A stretch of 64,000 nucleotides of DNA. It comes from Synechococcus sp. RCC307 (GTDB lineage: Bacteria > Cyanobacteriota > Cyanobacteriia > PCC-6307 > Cyanobiaceae). Positions within the stretch are counted from its first letter, which is position 1, and the number at the start of each line of letters is the position of its first letter. The DNA lies in contig CT978603.1 of NCBI GenBank assembly GCA_000063525.1, positions 2,041,105-2,105,104 of the forward strand, given 5' to 3'. This document shows, one piece after another, positions 19,843 through 25,721 of this stretch. Below the pieces are notes generated by a model, which was given only the letters and a program-made list of their open reading frames with translations, searched no databases and was not told the DNA's origin. The position numbers and the translations under genes were made by a program.

Positions 19843-20277
19843 TCAGTCGTCGCTGTGATGGCGCCTTTGGCGCTGCTGCTTGATCTGGCCGCGTTGTTTC
19901 TTGGCATCCAAGCGGCGGCGCTGGGAACCGCGGGTGGGCTTGGTGGCACGGCGAGGCTTCGGCGGTGGCTTGAGGCCTTCCCGCAACAACTCCGCCAGCC
20001 GCTCGAGGGCCAACTGCCGGTTGCGCCATTGGGAGCGATGCTCAGCGGCCACAACCCGCAACACCCCGCCACTGAGCTTGGAGCCCAAGCGCTGTTGCAG
20101 GCGCTGGCGCCGAACCTCTCCCAAGACCGAGGAAGCCTGCAGGTCAAACAACAGCTCAACAGCTGTTTCCAACTTGTTGACGTTCTGCCCGCCTGGGCCG
20201 GAGGAGCGCGTAAAGCGCCATTGCAGCTCAGCGGCAGGGATCGCCAAGCGTTGATGAATCACTAGATCGCGATCCAC
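19843..20277 (-). CDS. arfB: Alternative ribosome-rescue hydrolase ArfB (YaeJ)
   Basis: Releases stalled peptidyl-tRNA from ribosomes lacking a stop codon. The class I release-factor motif GGQ is at 29-31 within SSGPGGQNVNK, and the C-terminal tail is strongly basic (KKQRGQIKQQRQRRHH), as needed to enter the empty mRNA channel. 144 residues, normal. Its start lies 8 bp from the remnant of the argJ 3' end that forms the left attachment site. Before the island entered, argJ and arfB would have been direct neighbours on the minus strand. Confidence 0.93.
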   Translation of the reverse strand: MDRDLVIHQRLAIPAAELQWRFTRSSGPGGQNVNKLETAVELLFDLQASSVLGEVRRQRLQQRLGSKLSGGVLRVVAAEHRSQWRNRQLALERLAELLREGLKPPPKPRRATKPTRGSQRRRLDAKKQRGQIKQQRQRRHHSDD

Positions 20278-20286
20278 GGCGCACTC

Positions 20287-20308
20287 AAGTGGTGTAGTCG
20301 GCGTTGAT
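20287..20308. repeat. Left attachment site (attL), displaced argJ 3' end
   Basis: Read on the minus strand, this is ATC AAC GCC GAC TAC ACC ACT then TGA (stop at 20287-20285): the last codons I-N-A-D-Y-T-T of argJ, without the rest of the gene. It matches 23869-23890 with one mismatch in 22 positions and includes a perfect 17-bp core. Homology to argJ ends exactly here. Confidence 0.85.
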
Positions 20309-20362
20309 AGACACTTATAGGCAGATTCCCCTTCAACACTTGGGTTTTGGCGGTGGAATGAC

Positions 20363-20441
20363 CGTTAGCAAGGTGTTAGCACCACCATGCGCACACCCAA
20401 ATCCCTGTGGTGGCGGTGATGGCGTAAGCAAACCGTTAGCA
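20363..20441. repeat. Two paired GTTAGCA sites (integrase arm-type candidates)
   Basis: GTTAGCA-4bp-GTTAGCA at 20364-20381 and a variant GTAAGCA-4bp-GTTAGCA at 20424-20441. Both keep an 11-bp period, about one helical turn. The 19-bp string at 20363-20381 recurs exactly at 23801-23819. They lie between attL and the integrase start, where arm-binding or autoregulatory sites would be expected. Confidence 0.65.
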
Positions 20442-20456
20442 GGAACACCCCTGTAG

Positions 20457-21983
20457 ATGACCTCTACCTCCACCTCCACCTCCACCTCCAAGGCATCCAC
20501 AAATGGTTCAGGCCAAGCCAAGGCGGTGCTGGACCGCAAGGACATTCCTGGGGACAAAAATGCATATGTATATAGAGATGGGAAACGAGGCGGAAGGTGG
20601 TGCCTCTACTTCTATGACCGTGAAACCACGAACAGGCATCGGTTCGTCCTGAAGGATGGGAATGGTGTTCATCCACCAGCGACACCAGAAGCACAAGACG
20701 AAGCTTGGATGCTGGGTATCGCCAAGTTCGTTGAACTGAAGGGTAAGAGCGATAGAGGTGAAGCCATTCAGTCTTTGTCCTGGGGAGAGATGGTGAAGAA
20801 GTTTCTTCTCAAGGAAAGAAGACGCATCTCCGACATTCCTCACAATGGAATATCAAAAGCAAGATTTAGGCTTATTGAGACACAACTCAGATGGATAAGT
20901 GATTATGTCGATGACGAAAACAAACATGTTCACAAGTTCAGACGCAATGCTTTTCTGAACTACGAAGTATGGAGGAAAGAAAGAGCCAAAGAATTCGGAA
21001 AAGCAATTCCAAGACAAACAACGATCAATCAAGAACTTTCTACGCTTCGTCGTTGTTTCACTGAAGTTGCAGTAACCAATGGTTTCCTCACAAGAGACAG
21101 TGTTCCAGAAATTCCGTCAGTCAAACTTCCCAAAGACAAGAAGCACAGAAGAGATGATCTAACAGCAAGAGAATGGGAAGAGATGGAAAAGGTGATGAGG
21201 TATTACTGGACCAAAGGAAAGACAAGGCTTTTAGATAATCAGTACAAAACAGAGAAGGACAGTGATGGTCAGTACAAGGTCTTATGGAATGTCGGAAGGA
21301 AAGGAGAACAACGAAGCCAAAGAGGAAAACGGCAAATCGTTCATAGAGAGATGCTGTACTGGATGATGAGAATCTCTATGGATACTGGAACAAGGATTGG
21401 TTCTCTTCGGAAGATGCAGTGGAAGCACATAGACAAGTCCACATACATTCCAAAGAAAGAGCAAGCAATCTGGGTTTTCATCAATGTCCCACCAGAGAAC
21501 ACCAAGACTGGGCGCTCTTACCGAATTGCGGCACCCATTGCGAAGCATCTTGAAAATCTGAGGAAATCAAATTCATTCACTAAACCTGACGACTTCCTGT
21601 TCTGCAACCAACAGACGGGACAACCGTTCAGTCAAAGAATCCTTCACGACAGTTTGTGCGAAGTTTTGGTTGAGGCACGTTTAGCGGACTGGTCAGGGGA
21701 CGATACGAACAATCGGCGAAAAATTGATATCCACTCTGGGAAGAACTTGACTTGGTGTAGCTTCAGACATACTTACATCACGATGCGATTACAAGCAGGA
21801 ACACCTGTAGCAGTTGTCGCCGCAAATACAGATACAAGCCTCAAGTACATCGAAGAGCATTACTTCCACTACAGAGCAGAAGAGTCCACTGACCAGTTGG
21901 GCAAGGGACGACGCTTCAAGGAAGCGATGACAGAATTGGTATGGATCGAGGAAGTCTCAGATAAAGAAGCAAAAAGAATCTGA
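20457..21983 (+). CDS. int: Tyrosine recombinase (island integrase)
   Basis: 508-residue site-specific recombinase. The catalytic domain shows the first arginine in TGTRIGSLRKMQW, HxxR-type SFRHTYIT and the nucleophile tyrosine in the EEHYFHYR segment near the C-terminus. An N-terminal arm/core-binding region precedes it (about 105-220, TTINQELSTLRRCF). The extreme N-terminus is a Thr-Ser run encoded by ACCTCC repeats (20460-20489). Codon use is AT-richer than in flanking genes. Placement next to attL is typical for an integrase acting on its own element. The ATG at 20457 follows the second paired GTTAGCA site closely, suggesting autoregulation. Confidence 0.92.
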   Translation: MTSTSTSTSTSKASTNGSGQAKAVLDRKDIPGDKNAYVYRDGKRGGRWCLYFYDRETTNRHRFVLKDGNGVHPPATPEAQDEAWMLGIAKFVELKGKSDRGEAIQSLSWGEMVKKFLLKERRRISDIPHNGISKARFRLIETQLRWISDYVDDENKHVHKFRRNAFLNYEVWRKERAKEFGKAIPRQTTINQELSTLRRCFTEVAVTNGFLTRDSVPEIPSVKLPKDKKHRRDDLTAREWEEMEKVMRYYWTKGKTRLLDNQYKTEKDSDGQYKVLWNVGRKGEQRSQRGKRQIVHREMLYWMMRISMDTGTRIGSLRKMQWKHIDKSTYIPKKEQAIWVFINVPPENTKTGRSYRIAAPIAKHLENLRKSNSFTKPDDFLFCNQQTGQPFSQRILHDSLCEVLVEARLADWSGDDTNNRRKIDIHSGKNLTWCSFRHTYITMRLQAGTPVAVVAANTDTSLKYIEEHYFHYRAEESTDQLGKGRRFKEAMTELVWIEEVSDKEAKRI

Positions 21984-22004
21984 GACTCCACTCAAAACCC
22001 AGAA

Positions 22005-23135
22005 TCAACGCAAACCAATATCCGAAAGAGAACGTTTCCCCAGCGCTATCGCCTCAAGACGTTCGATTCGTGCTAACAGGTCTTGATTTTCTTGGCGGAT
22101 AGCAGCATTTTCCTGTTTCACCCCATCAAGTTGCGACTGCAGTTGATCTTCGTGTGAAGTCGATGCCTTAGGGATGGCACCTAATTTAAAAACAAAACCT
22201 GAACGTAAAGCTACGGTATCCAACGAACCACCGCCATAGTTACTGGATCCACCAAAGACATGTGATCCACCAACGTTAATGGAGAGACGTTCATTTAGTC
22301 GTGCAGCACAACCAATACCCATGGCAAAACGACTGCTATATCCACCCGTACCAACACCGCAGGATAAGGGAGCATCATCAGCAACAACAGGTAGCGACGA
22401 CAGCGCCGCAGTCAAAGCAGTTGCACCAGCAACGCCAGAACCTAGATCATTAATATTGCCGCGATTAGTTTCAATATTTTTGCGATTATTGACTATGTCC
22501 TGAGCGTTGTCATCAATTTGACCTTGCACACTTCTACCATTGATAAGCAGATCAGAACCATTAGTTATATCAATGTCAATCGGATCAGAATTTGCATCGG
22601 TTGCGAACAACTGCTGGACACCTCCCCTCTCTCTCGTGATTAATGAATTTTCTCCTATGTGAATATCACCATTTGGTTTAACAGTAACAGGAGAACTTAT
22701 CGCTCCAGGTGAAAATGGGATTAGTTTACTGTCAACCCCCTCGCCATTAGGCAATGCAGTTGGTGAATTCAGAAAGGTGACACCGGCAGATGGATTATTG
22801 CGATCCCAAACTGCAAATTTTGGAGTGTATCCACTATCCGGATTCCAATCGTTTCCAGGACCTACAACAAGCCTTTCAGTATAAACATCGTAGAAGGTAT
22901 CACCATCACCATAGGGATTATCCCATTCACCCAACAGCACTGACTCGCCAGTGTCCTGGTCCACTCCATAAACTCGCTGCTTCCAACAGGAATCCGACTG
23001 ACCTGGTATGGAGCAATTAGCACCATCCTGTGTAGAAGTAAATAGCAAATAAGGATCTACCGTTTGCGATACGGCTGGTTTACAACTAAAACTGCCAAGA
23101 ATAAATGCAATAAACAACAGAGATTTTCTTTTCAT
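22005..23135 (-). CDS. Trimeric-autotransporter-like surface protein (YadA-type anchor)
   Basis: 376 residues. Signal peptide at 1-23 (KRKSLLFIAFILGSF, cleavage near AVSQ). The head, to about 195, is rich in Gly/Asn/Asp. A short stalk coiled coil follows (DDNAQDIVNNRKNIETNRGN, about 205-225). Next is a YadA-like anchor: GVAGATALTAALSSLP, then VGTGGYSSRFAMGIGCAARLN and strand-like Gly-rich segments to FVFKLG near 320. Unusually, a further coiled coil (LQSQLDGVKQENAAIRQENQ) follows the barrel and would lie in the periplasm. Such proteins trimerise in the outer membrane and act in adhesion. It is convergent with the integrase, 21 bp apart. The family call comes from pattern, not a search. Confidence 0.65.
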   Translation of the reverse strand: MKRKSLLFIAFILGSFSCKPAVSQTVDPYLLFTSTQDGANCSIPGQSDSCWKQRVYGVDQDTGESVLLGEWDNPYGDGDTFYDVYTERLVVGPGNDWNPDSGYTPKFAVWDRNNPSAGVTFLNSPTALPNGEGVDSKLIPFSPGAISSPVTVKPNGDIHIGENSLITRERGGVQQLFATDANSDPIDIDITNGSDLLINGRSVQGQIDDNAQDIVNNRKNIETNRGNINDLGSGVAGATALTAALSSLPVVADDAPLSCGVGTGGYSSRFAMGIGCAARLNERLSINVGGSHVFGGSSNYGGGSLDTVALRSGFVFKLGAIPKASTSHEDQLQSQLDGVKQENAAIRQENQDLLARIERLEAIALGKRSLSDIGLR

Positions 23136-23424
23136 TGGTTAAATAGCATTAAAATAACAATATGTGTGCGCGAAATCAGCAATCTGTACGGTAGACAGAA
23201 AAAGGATCGTCACAAAAATTGGTAACAAATACGCCCTGAAAACAAATGAAGAAAAGATTCAAGAGAATAAGTCAATGATTCAATTGCGACTAGGGATCAT
23301 GTTATCCAGTGTATATACAACGGTATACAGCCACAAAGGTGTCCTCACATCTGTGGAATTTACGGTGTATTTGTAGAACCTTCTAACAAGTCAAACGCAC
23401 GTTTCGGAACATTCCGAAGGGTTC
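23136..23424. other. AT-rich island spacer
   Basis: Holds the upstream region of the surface-protein gene (minus) and that of the broken recombinase (plus). A 70-codon plus-strand frame (23164-23376) shows no recognisable features. Near 23311-23330 there is a palindrome-rich stretch with GTATAC-like halves. Nothing else could be supported. Confidence 0.5.
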
Positions 23425-23640
23425 ATGAGGAAGTACGTCACCTACAAACGAGTCAGCGGTGGAGAAAACCAAAAGAGTGGCCTTGGTCTGGATGCACAAG
23501 AACGGGACATCCAACTCTTCCTGGAGAACTACGCAGACGATCCCTATGAAGTCCTGGAGGAGTTTGTAGAGGTACAGACAGGCACCGATAACGACAGACC
23601 ACAACTGACTGCTGCCATCGCGCTGGCAAAGCAGCACTAA
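23425..23640 (+). pseudogene. Truncated serine recombinase (N-terminal fragment)
   Basis: 71 residues resembling the start of a small serine recombinase/resolvase: KYVTYKRVSGG holds the RVS active-site serine, followed by GLGLDAQERDIQLFLENYADD and DNDRPQLTAAI. The frame stops just after the first beta-alpha units; the helices, arginines and DNA-binding part are missing. Full-length relatives are usually well over 180 residues. It is therefore probably inactive, though a stable small protein is not excluded. It lies inside the argJ island, close to attR. Confidence 0.7.
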
Positions 23641-23806
23641 CGAGAGTACGAATGTTGTCGTAAGACAAAAGAATTCACCTGATAGACATCAATTACCTGT
23701 ACGTTTTCACGCTGGGTTTAGTGAGGGTCAGGTGTCCTCAATCGTTGGGTGTTCCCCTTCCGATGTACACATCATCGCTGAAAACTACGTCCGTATCAAG
23801 CGTTAG
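23641..23806 (+). pseudogene. Decayed open frame, possible recombinase tail
   Basis: In the frame ending TAG at 23804-23806 the sequence reads open for about 55 codons, ending in GFSEGQVSSIVG and ENYVRIKR. That resembles the helix and nucleophile-tyrosine region of a tyrosine recombinase C-terminus (a GHS-like turn, then Y). No start codon or upstream catalytic part is present. It may be the relic of an earlier integrase or chance. Low certainty. Confidence 0.25.
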
Positions 23807-23819
23807 CAAGGTGTTAGCA
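23801..23819. repeat. Right paired GTTAGCA site
   Basis: CGTTAGCAAGGTGTTAGCA, identical to 20363-20381. It ends 54 bp before the attR core, and the left copy begins 54 bp after the attL core, in the same orientation. The equal spacing argues for a functional recombination site. Confidence 0.65.
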
Positions 23820-23866
23820 GTAGGTTTAGACCCCCCAAAACACCTGTATTTGCAGCACTTCTTGAA

Positions 23867-25105
23867 TTAAGTCGTGTAGTCGGCGTTGATGCGCACGTAT
23901 TGATCAGAGAGATCGCAGCCCCAGGCCGTTGCCGTGCCTGGGGCCTGGCCAACCACCAGGCGAATCACGACCGTGTCATCCAGCAAATACGTGCTCGCCG
24001 CGCGCTCTCGCATATATGCGCTGGCTGCTGCGCGATCGAATGCCAACGGCTGACCAGCGGCCATCAGCTGATGCTCGCCAAGCCAAAGGGCCACGGCATC
24101 AGGATCCATTGGCACCCCAGCGCGGCCAGCCGCCGCAACGATGCGGCCCCAGTTGGGATCGCGGCCATGCAATGCGGTCTTCACCAGCGAGGAGCCACAC
24201 ACCGTGCGGGCAATGGCCTGGGCTGCCGCTTCATCAGCAGCGCCTTCCACCTGGACTTCCAGAAGCAACGTGGCCCCTTCCCCATCGCGGGCAATGGCGC
24301 GGGCCAACTGCTGCATCGCCGTGGTCAGCCCTTGCTCGAGGGCGTTGTGGTGCTCAACCGCCAAAGGCTCTCCGGCGGCGTAAGCCAGCACGGTGTCGTT
24401 GGTACTGGTGTCGCCATCGACGGTGATGCTGTTGAACGAGCGCTGCACCGCACGGCGCACCATCGCTTGCCACACATCCGCTGGCACGACTGCATCACAA
24501 CTAAAGAACCCAAGCATCGTGGCCATGTCGGGATGAATCATTCCCGAACCTTTGGCCATTCCACCAATGCGAACGGTGCGGCCTCCGAGCTCGGCCTCCA
24601 GGGCCACCTGCTTTTCAAGCAGATCAGTGGTGAGAATCGCATCAGCTGCCGCAGCCGCTGCCTGGGGCGATGAACCCAAGGCCGACACTAATGGCGCAAC
24701 CCCGGCCAGCAGCGTGTCCATCGGAATCGGCACGCCAATCACCCCGGTGGAGCAGATCAGCACCTCGTCTTGGCTCAGCCCCAGCTGATCAGCCACTGCC
24801 TGGGTGGCCCTGTGGCTATCGATCAAGCCCAAGTCGCCCGTGCAGGCATTGGCCTGGCCGGAGTTGATCAGCACCGCCTGCGCCTTGCCGCCTGAGGCCT
24901 CGAGCCGCTCCGCGCAGAGATCCACGCAAGCCGCCCGAACACGGTTGGTGGTGAAGCTGCCCCCGCAAACCGCTCCGGCTGGTGCCAGCAACAAGGCCAA
25001 ATCAGAGCGGCCACTGGCCTTGAGCCCTGCAGTGATGCCGGCAGCCTGAAATCCAGCCGGTGCCGTGATCCCACCCTCGATGGCACGCCAGGGGTGCGTC
25101 ATCAT
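23867..25105 (-). CDS. argJ: Bifunctional ornithine acetyltransferase/N-acetylglutamate synthase
   Basis: Recycles the acetyl group between N-acetylornithine and glutamate in arginine synthesis. It is made as one chain and self-cleaves before a threonine: the site is visible as GMIHPDMA/TMLGFF (A195/T196). Other blocks are INSGQANACTG, STGVIGVPIPMD and DPNWGRIVAAAGRAG. 412 residues from the ATG at 25105; a second ATG follows directly. The 3' end hosts the island attachment site but the protein is complete. Only 28 bp separate it from divergent coaE. Confidence 0.96.
   Translation of the reverse strand: MMTHPWRAIEGGITAPAGFQAAGITAGLKASGRSDLALLLAPAGAVCGGSFTTNRVRAACVDLCAERLEASGGKAQAVLINSGQANACTGDLGLIDSHRATQAVADQLGLSQDEVLICSTGVIGVPIPMDTLLAGVAPLVSALGSSPQAAAAAADAILTTDLLEKQVALEAELGGRTVRIGGMAKGSGMIHPDMATMLGFFSCDAVVPADVWQAMVRRAVQRSFNSITVDGDTSTNDTVLAYAAGEPLAVEHHNALEQGLTTAMQQLARAIARDGEGATLLLEVQVEGAADEAAAQAIARTVCGSSLVKTALHGRDPNWGRIVAAAGRAGVPMDPDAVALWLGEHQLMAAGQPLAFDRAAASAYMRERAASTYLLDDTVVIRLVVGQAPGTATAWGCDLSDQYVRINADYTT
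23869..23890. repeat. Right attachment site (attR) inside argJ
   Basis: The last seven codons of intact argJ (I-N-A-D-Y-T-T, here ending ACG ACT and then TAA at 23869-23867). It matches attL in 21 of 22 positions. The island thus replaced the original end of argJ with a synonymous copy: ACC became ACG and TGA became TAA. Confidence 0.85.
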
Positions 25106-25133
25106 CCAACCCAACACACTGCACCATTCTCCC

Positions 25134-25721
25134 GTGGCCCAGCGCCGCATCGGCCTCACTGGCGGCATTGCCACTGGTAAGAGCAGCGCCGCGCGGCTGC
25201 TTGAACAGCACCATGGCCTGCCGGTGCTCGACGCTGACCTCTACGCGCGCCAAGCCTTAGAACCTGGCCAACCCGCCACAGAGGCGGTGCTTGAGCGCTT
25301 TGGCCCTGGGGTGGTGAGCAGCGGTGGGGTGGTGGATCGCCGCGCCTTGGGAGCGATTGTGTTCAACAACCAAGACGAGCGCCGCTGGCTGGAGCAACTG
25401 GTGCATCCAATCGTGCGCCAGCGCTTTGACCAGGAGCTCGTGCAGCTGGACACCAACCCTGCTGTGGTGCTGATGATTCCGCTGCTGTTTGAAAGCGGGC
25501 TTGAAGCGCTCTGCAGTGAAACTTGGCTGGTGGATTGCGATGAAAGCCAACAGCTGCAGCGATTGATGGCCCGCGACCAACTCAACGAAGCAGAGGCGCA
25601 AGCGCGCATGGATGCTCAGTGGCCACTGGCACGCAAGCGTCCTCTCGCCGATGTGTTGATTAGCAACCGCGGAGATGCCGCTGCCCTCAATGCGCAGCTG
25701 GAAGACGCCCTCAGCCCTTGA
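25134..25721 (+). CDS. coaE: Dephospho-CoA kinase
   Basis: Phosphorylates dephospho-CoA in the last step of CoA synthesis. The P-loop GGIATGKS is at 10-17, followed by the CoaE blocks LDADLYARQ, VHPIVRQRF and IPLLFESGLE. The GTG at 25134 (VAQRRIGLTGG) puts the P-loop at the usual place and gives 195 residues; the in-frame ATG at 25065 would overlap argJ by 41 bp. The last 11 bp overlap the end of convergent gatB. Confidence 0.95.
   Translation: MAQRRIGLTGGIATGKSSAARLLEQHHGLPVLDADLYARQALEPGQPATEAVLERFGPGVVSSGGVVDRRALGAIVFNNQDERRWLEQLVHPIVRQRFDQELVQLDTNPAVVLMIPLLFESGLEALCSETWLVDCDESQQLQRLMARDQLNEAEAQARMDAQWPLARKRPLADVLISNRGDAAALNAQLEDALSP

Follow-up and report, generated by a model that had tools for sequence, protein, structure and literature searches.

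Why does the end of the housekeeping gene argJ occur twice in Synechococcus sp. RCC307, once in place and once 3.6 kb away beside arfB? The question was addressed in a window of 64,000 nucleotides (contig CT978603.1, positions 2,041,105 to 2,105,104), the whole stretch of DNA analysed here, which derives from a complete 2.22-Mb genome. Our answer is that the 3.6-kb island between the two copies is very probably an integrative element, one of a widespread picocyanobacterial family, and that the attachment site of its tyrosine integrase is the 3′ end of argJ.

The final seven codons of argJ are duplicated beside arfB. The direct repeat relating the argJ end to the arfB-side copy spans 32 nt at 84% identity and contains a minus-strand core of 17 nt, ATCAACGCCGACTACAC, that is exactly conserved between the copies. 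The two copies of the core are spaced 3582 bp apart and there is no third within the window. Between the argJ end and the island the longest exact match is 17 nt; the maximum across 1000 Markov-simulated islands was 13. The argJ copy ends ACG ACT TAA and the arfB-side copy ACC ACT TGA. The guanine-plus-cytosine (GC) content is 40–47% between the core copies and ~62% outside, and the intervening DNA contains the integrase and a cargo open reading frame (ORF). The preliminary description of this locus, which had pointed to the repeat, the synonymous differences between its copies and a tyrosine integrase with AT-richer genes between them, is therefore accurate on all three. The core encodes the conserved C-terminus of ArgJ, INADYT, and the segment INADYTT ranks 18 of 429 in conservation along the protein.

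An empty site, in which argJ would be joined directly to arfB through one core, had been predicted and is present in a congener (G005) whose ArgJ is 97% identical. Here argJ and arfB are ~8 bp apart through a single core. The window flanks, when joined at the core, match G005 with 91.0% and 92.75% identity over 400 bp on each side, whereas reading on into the island instead of the joined flank gives 29%. The proposal of site-specific integration at the argJ 3′ end is thus borne out. In G005 argJ ends ACC ACT TGA GTGCGC, as does the displaced copy of the window and not its present argJ. Because the single-core end matches the displaced copy, the present final codons and stop of argJ must have been supplied by the island, in agreement with the earlier suggestion that it carries its own gene end. 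On the sequence evidence argJ stays whole, the argJ-side core and stop having come with the element and the original end having been pushed to the far border. The identity of ArgJ in the empty congener is consistent with a fairly recent insertion (or loss in G005). In G003 the assembly is interrupted within the core, and in G002 the contig with arfB starts immediately beyond it. Mixed occupancy in these populations would account for the contig breaks, which are only suggestive.

Across a sample of 400 Cyanobiaceae genomes, homologues of the integrase were found in 53, fragments and weak matches included; there was none outside the Cyanobiaceae in a 390-genome sample of the class at E ≤ 1e-20. 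An argJ-end core lies 107–180 bp upstream of the integrase start in all 21 integrases compared, namely that of the window and 20 homologues of 45–64% identity distributed across the Cyanobiaceae, including Prochlorococcus. On contigs that carry both genes, the integrase lies 2–27 kb 3′ of argJ and is oriented toward it. A separate search identified two carriers by name, Prochlorococcus AG-315-C08, which has two integrases on one contig, and AG-402-A08, which has a partial one. The preliminary description correctly identified a protein gene as the target but considered this unusual; it recurs across the family. Relationships among the integrases and among the ArgJ proteins disagree both ways. 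In genus g45, ArgJ is 94–97% identical and the integrases only 46–53%; between G329 and G240, which belong to different genera, the integrase is 96% identical and ArgJ 86%. This disagreement indicates horizontal movement of the argJ integrases. A second integrase lineage (22–29% identical to the window integrase; nine matches in eight genomes) is also found at argJ and sits at the other end, starting ~190–215 bp inside the argJ-side core where measured. A further set of integrases (L127–L138) from elsewhere in the Cyanobiaceae, 22–27% identical to the argJ type, has neither an argJ core nor a tRNA in the 9–15 kb retrieved for each. We also note an argJ-end core ~350 kb from argJ (L112, G198:C1:1778924), a possible secondary integration site, and a displaced argJ end that spans 39 codons or more, far longer than the usual core (L108, G385:C50:5864-5980).

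The repeat CGTTAGCAAGGTGTTAGCA sits inside both ends of the window island, at 20363 on one side and 23801 on the other, and a degenerate version of it is present at 20423. In total there are six arm-like sites, arranged as pairs at ~+70/+81 inside the argJ border and at ~−64/−75 and ~−124/−135 inside the other. The integrase islands compared share a common plan: an octamer pair, 11 bp apart, ~+70 from the argJ-side core and two further pairs ~64–75 and 124–135 upstream of the displaced core. The internal repeats of the window island are arm sites of this kind. The arm sequence varies by island (TGCTAAC, GGGTAAC, TGTTAGC, TGCTCAC, TGTGTCAC), and left and right arms match within most islands. 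Exceptions are composites such as G365, so designated because its left arms are of one type and its right arms of another, and G262, where a left-right match was looked for and none found. The octamer of an island is hit 2.2 times per right end of its own and 0.21 times in the right ends of other units. Units were delimited by cores in which no more than one mismatch was allowed, and genes within them were called as simple ORFs. A left-end pair of period 11 is seen in 39 of 54 core-to-core units, against no more than three at any other period or left-end control position. With near-duplicates removed the pair is present in 35 of 48 units, compared with 2.9% expected from random interior windows (binomial 1.7e-43). 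The second integrase lineage has its arm pair at +88 to +96, with the motif TGTGAY.

The window island therefore has a tyrosine recombinase near one end, a flanking core that is single in the empty site and arm-type repeats, distinct from the core and recognised by sequence, inside both ends. The island ends thus have the layout of a complex attachment site of the lambda type. The element would enter as a circle bearing a single core, through strand exchange inside that core. By analogy with lambda Int, the N-terminal domain of the integrase would bind the arms and the catalytic domain the core. A structural model of the integrase built with 16 homologues has a predicted local distance difference test score (pLDDT) of 76.5 (36 when built from the single sequence), and its fold corresponds to those of XerH, Tn1549 Int and lambda Int (E ~1e-7 to 1e-6). 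The N-terminus of the model consists of beta strands and then a helix, which is where the arm-binding domain would be. The first codons of the window integrase (20457–20500) contain a Thr-Ser run of TCCACC repeats that is absent from the aligned homologues.

The features of the island and its borders are collected in Table 1. The island is a small, single and partly decayed member of the family, comprising the integrase, a YadA-anchor protein and a resolvase remnant. A helix-turn-helix-like reading frame continues after the truncated resolvase to ~23805 (frame-0 translation). In related islands the resolvase gene is intact (192–215 aa); with six homologues among 81 island ORFs, a resolvase is the accessory gene that integrase islands carry most often. 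A YadA-anchor ORF also adjoins argJ in the G276 island (L071 ORF, PF03895 4.4e-07).

Table 1. Positions in the window of the island, its attachment sites and the flanking host genes.
Feature	Position	Strand	Evidence
argJ (host gene)	23867..25174	-	Pfam ArgJ 8.5e-139
argJ last codons and stop ACG ACT TAA, island-derived	within 23867..25174	-	inferred from G005 empty site
argJ-side core (attachment site) ATCAACGCCGACTACAC	23874..23890	-	
argJ-side arm-site pair TGCTAACACCTTGCTAACG, sites 11 bp apart, ~+70/+81 from core	23801..23819	-	
Truncated serine recombinase (resolvase N-terminus)	23425..23640	+	PF00239 3.9e-05
Cargo, 376 aa, YadA-type outer-membrane anchor	22005..23135	-	PF03895 3.8e-09
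Tyrosine integrase, argJ-specific, 508 aa, points at argJ	20457..21983	+	PF00589 1.9e-06; phrog_1 1.1e-21
Distal arm-site pair TGCTAACGGTTTGCTTACG	20423..20441	-	
Core-proximal arm-site pair, arfB side, identical to argJ-side pair	20363..20381	-	
Displaced core; original argJ end ACC ACT TGA runs on into arfB	20292..20308	-	
arfB, host gene at the distal flank; adjoins argJ in empty site	19843..20277	-	NCBIfam PRK09256 2.8e-51

A degenerate argJ-end pattern occurs in two to four copies in 41 of the 400 genomes, counts that are lower bounds since the pattern is strict and the reduced-genome genus g18 never matches it; the reversed control pattern gave 0 matches. Fourteen of these 41 genomes have no integrase match. 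Duplicated argJ ends lacking an integrase, the case named in the preliminary description as contrary to its reading, do therefore occur; yet 18 of 28 non-redundant integrase-less units keep the arm pair at its element-specific position, and we read them as integrase-less members of the family. Tandem arrays of 0.6–6-kb units, each bounded by argJ cores and lacking an integrase, follow argJ in several genomes; there are five consecutive cores in G056 and four each in G261 and G298 within 5–8 kb. One array (L126, G345:C27) has two units of identical length, 1711 bp, with a 1575-bp unit between them, which suggests duplication of a cassette within the array. A full or near-full set of arms is kept in a type II restriction-modification unit (G261) and a cyanase unit (G298). 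The cyanase segment starts exactly at the core both in the integrase-less G298 unit and in the G365 integrase island, and the two are 98.1% identical over 1101 bp (argJ 84.0%); cynS lies at 7915-9225 of L114 (G298) and 9128-9568 of L078 (G365). The same segment is found behind a degenerate core in G169. G042 and G261, which are of different genera (argJ 61.1%), share a methyltransferase-like cassette at 84.6% identity. Other cargo genes encode a complete type I restriction system (G210), a sulfotransferase (G262) and HupE/UreJ (G127). Two adjacent argJ units in G112 (L076 5398-7522 and 13004-15446) encode nine Nif11-leader lanthipeptide-type precursors with variable tails, and such units are a possible vehicle for orphan prochlorosin-type genes.

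The integrase-less units look mobilisable in trans. Some members would have lost, or never had, the integrase and kept core and arms, giving rise to tandem cassette arrays behind argJ. We tentatively suggest, as something close to an even call, that argJ anchors a trans-mobilised cassette system. One- and two-gene cassettes without integrase, carrying argJ cores and specificity-matched arms, would be moved by the integrases of other elements, and the arrays would grow and exchange in the manner of integrons with lambda-type double-stranded sites.

Several points weigh against an integrative element at argJ. In congener G001 ~1 kb separates argJ and arfB with no duplicated core; this insertion is a different event, and other events thus also hit the argJ–arfB junction. 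The motif WYSFRHT, common to all other aligned homologues, is WCSFRHT in the window integrase, and the Cys stands where canonical enzymes have the HxxR histidine. Because this Cys replaces an otherwise invariant Tyr, the window copy may recombine poorly or not at all. No gene for an excisionase was identified, and we infer excision, the circle and transfer from sequence throughout. The Tyr-to-Cys change, together with the truncated resolvase and the many integrase fragments found in other genomes, also fits a decayed island, integrated once by the argJ integrase family and now immobile in this strain. We consider this possible but on the whole doubtful, given an uninterrupted integrase frame of 508 aa, intact core and arm sites and, in the empty congener, an ArgJ of 97% identity that places the insertion (or the G005 loss) fairly recently. 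Decay bears only on present activity and not on origin. An origin of the second argJ end by homologous recombination or tandem duplication, the integrase being uninvolved, would find a parallel in the longer argJ-end duplication of G148; it is scarcely credible, since the core keeps its position with respect to 21 integrases, the arm sites are spaced at fixed distances and the empty site is precise.

The preliminary description had called the island a candidate satellite element. The corresponding rival reading is a phage satellite at argJ, similar to tycheposons or to phage-inducible chromosomal islands (PICI) and spread in phage capsids. It would suit the small size, the integrase and the resolvase, and one member (G155, L124 3214-5679) encodes an 822-aa single-subunit T7-like RNA polymerase 28–29% identical to those of Synechococcus podoviruses. 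One of 81 island ORFs also matched phrog_6020 ‘major head protein’, a match that was not traceable in follow-up scans. No capsid, terminase, primase, packaging or other replication gene was recognised in the window island, however, whose cargo is the YadA-anchor protein and the resolvase remnant, and cargo across the family consists mostly of host-fitness genes. The integrase was matched in none of 50,697 phage records and 72,556 plasmids, nor in IMG/VR. The 11 viral contigs with the core pattern are chance coding matches with no argJ and no integrase, and a stricter core pattern gave no match in viral contigs; a phage origin was rejected. The satellite proposal is accordingly unlikely and was not sustained for the window island.

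The assignment of the integrative element to argJ bears on the choice between protein and tRNA targets. The window contains no tRNA. A tRNA target was rejected after scanning complete genomes, in which no tRNA lies within ~20 kb either side of the integrase–argJ region, with the exception of a tRNA-Ser inside a G210 array unit. Downstream, the nearest tRNA in four of five complete genomes is a tRNA-Val or tRNA-Gly at a distance of roughly 55–100 kb; in the fifth, none was found within ~100 kb. Tycheposons of Prochlorococcus, attributed to Hackl et al. 2023, reportedly integrate at tRNA genes and some are said to be satellites. They share with the argJ family a tyrosine recombinase, cargo and Prochlorococcus as a host, but use tRNA genes where the argJ family uses a protein gene. 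They are described as cargo-bearing integrative elements with a tyrosine recombinase and nitrogen-acquisition cargo (compare PMC10872708 and PMC10187409). A picocyanobacterial family of tyrosine integrases in variable islands, distinct from those of tycheposons, has been reported (Large language models improve annotation of viral proteins, PMC10187409), with tRNA-Phe or tRNA-Cys proposed as sites from proximity. Its integrase is reported to keep the active-site Arg, Lys, Arg and Tyr, and the two histidines are not listed. Hosts, active-site pattern, a small serine recombinase nearby and restriction-modification, nutrient or biosynthetic cargo are common to this family and ours. Compared by description, the two, which may be a single family, differ in that an argJ core lies 107–180 bp from every argJ-family integrase examined and, in the complete genomes scanned, the closest downstream tRNA found is neither Phe nor Cys.

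Gene ends supplied by an element are known from Thaumarchaea, where 14 of 68 integrated elements with mapped sites used protein genes and likewise provided a replacement 3′ end and stop codon (PMC6563490); these belong to another domain of life, and argJ is not among the target genes quoted. Cis-mobilisable elements (CIMEs) lack an integrase, keep both attachment (att) sites and accrete in tandem at one target (PMC5704250), as the integrase-less argJ units do. CIMEs are, however, decayed conjugative or mobilisable elements moved in cis, whereas the argJ cassettes are often single-gene, 0.6–2.6 kb in length, arrayed and recurrent across genera, several with complete arm sets. The window island has an integrase and so is not a CIME; the integrase-less units of related genomes do fall within the definition. 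In integrons, single-gene cassettes form tandem arrays at one site, and the tyrosine recombinase is encoded elsewhere and acts on attI and folded attC sites. The argJ cassettes resemble these in their arrays at one anchor and, presumably, in a recombinase encoded elsewhere. They differ in having no folded single-stranded attC, in their double-stranded lambda-type sites with arms and in an anchor that is argJ and not attI; family scans gave no IntI match for the window integrase. None of the papers searched brings argJ together with attB and an integrase. Integrase-less elements bounded by att sites (CIMEs) and protein-gene targets with supplied stop codons (in archaea) were already known, and the cassette array is the more novel possibility.

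The argJ family illustrates how a recombinase can land on the conserved end of a housekeeping gene without breaking it, and calls into question the tRNA sites that were assigned to similar integrases only because they lie close by. Islands hold much of the gene content that varies in Prochlorococcus and Synechococcus, and those described to date as mobile are assigned to tRNA sites. A hotspot at a protein gene, with integrases and an arm-site code of its own and with cassette arrays (cyanase, restriction systems, lanthipeptide-type precursors), offers a direct and testable route for swaps of ecologically relevant genes between genera. Small gene cassettes, often in rows behind argJ, would let picocyanobacteria exchange genes in this way.

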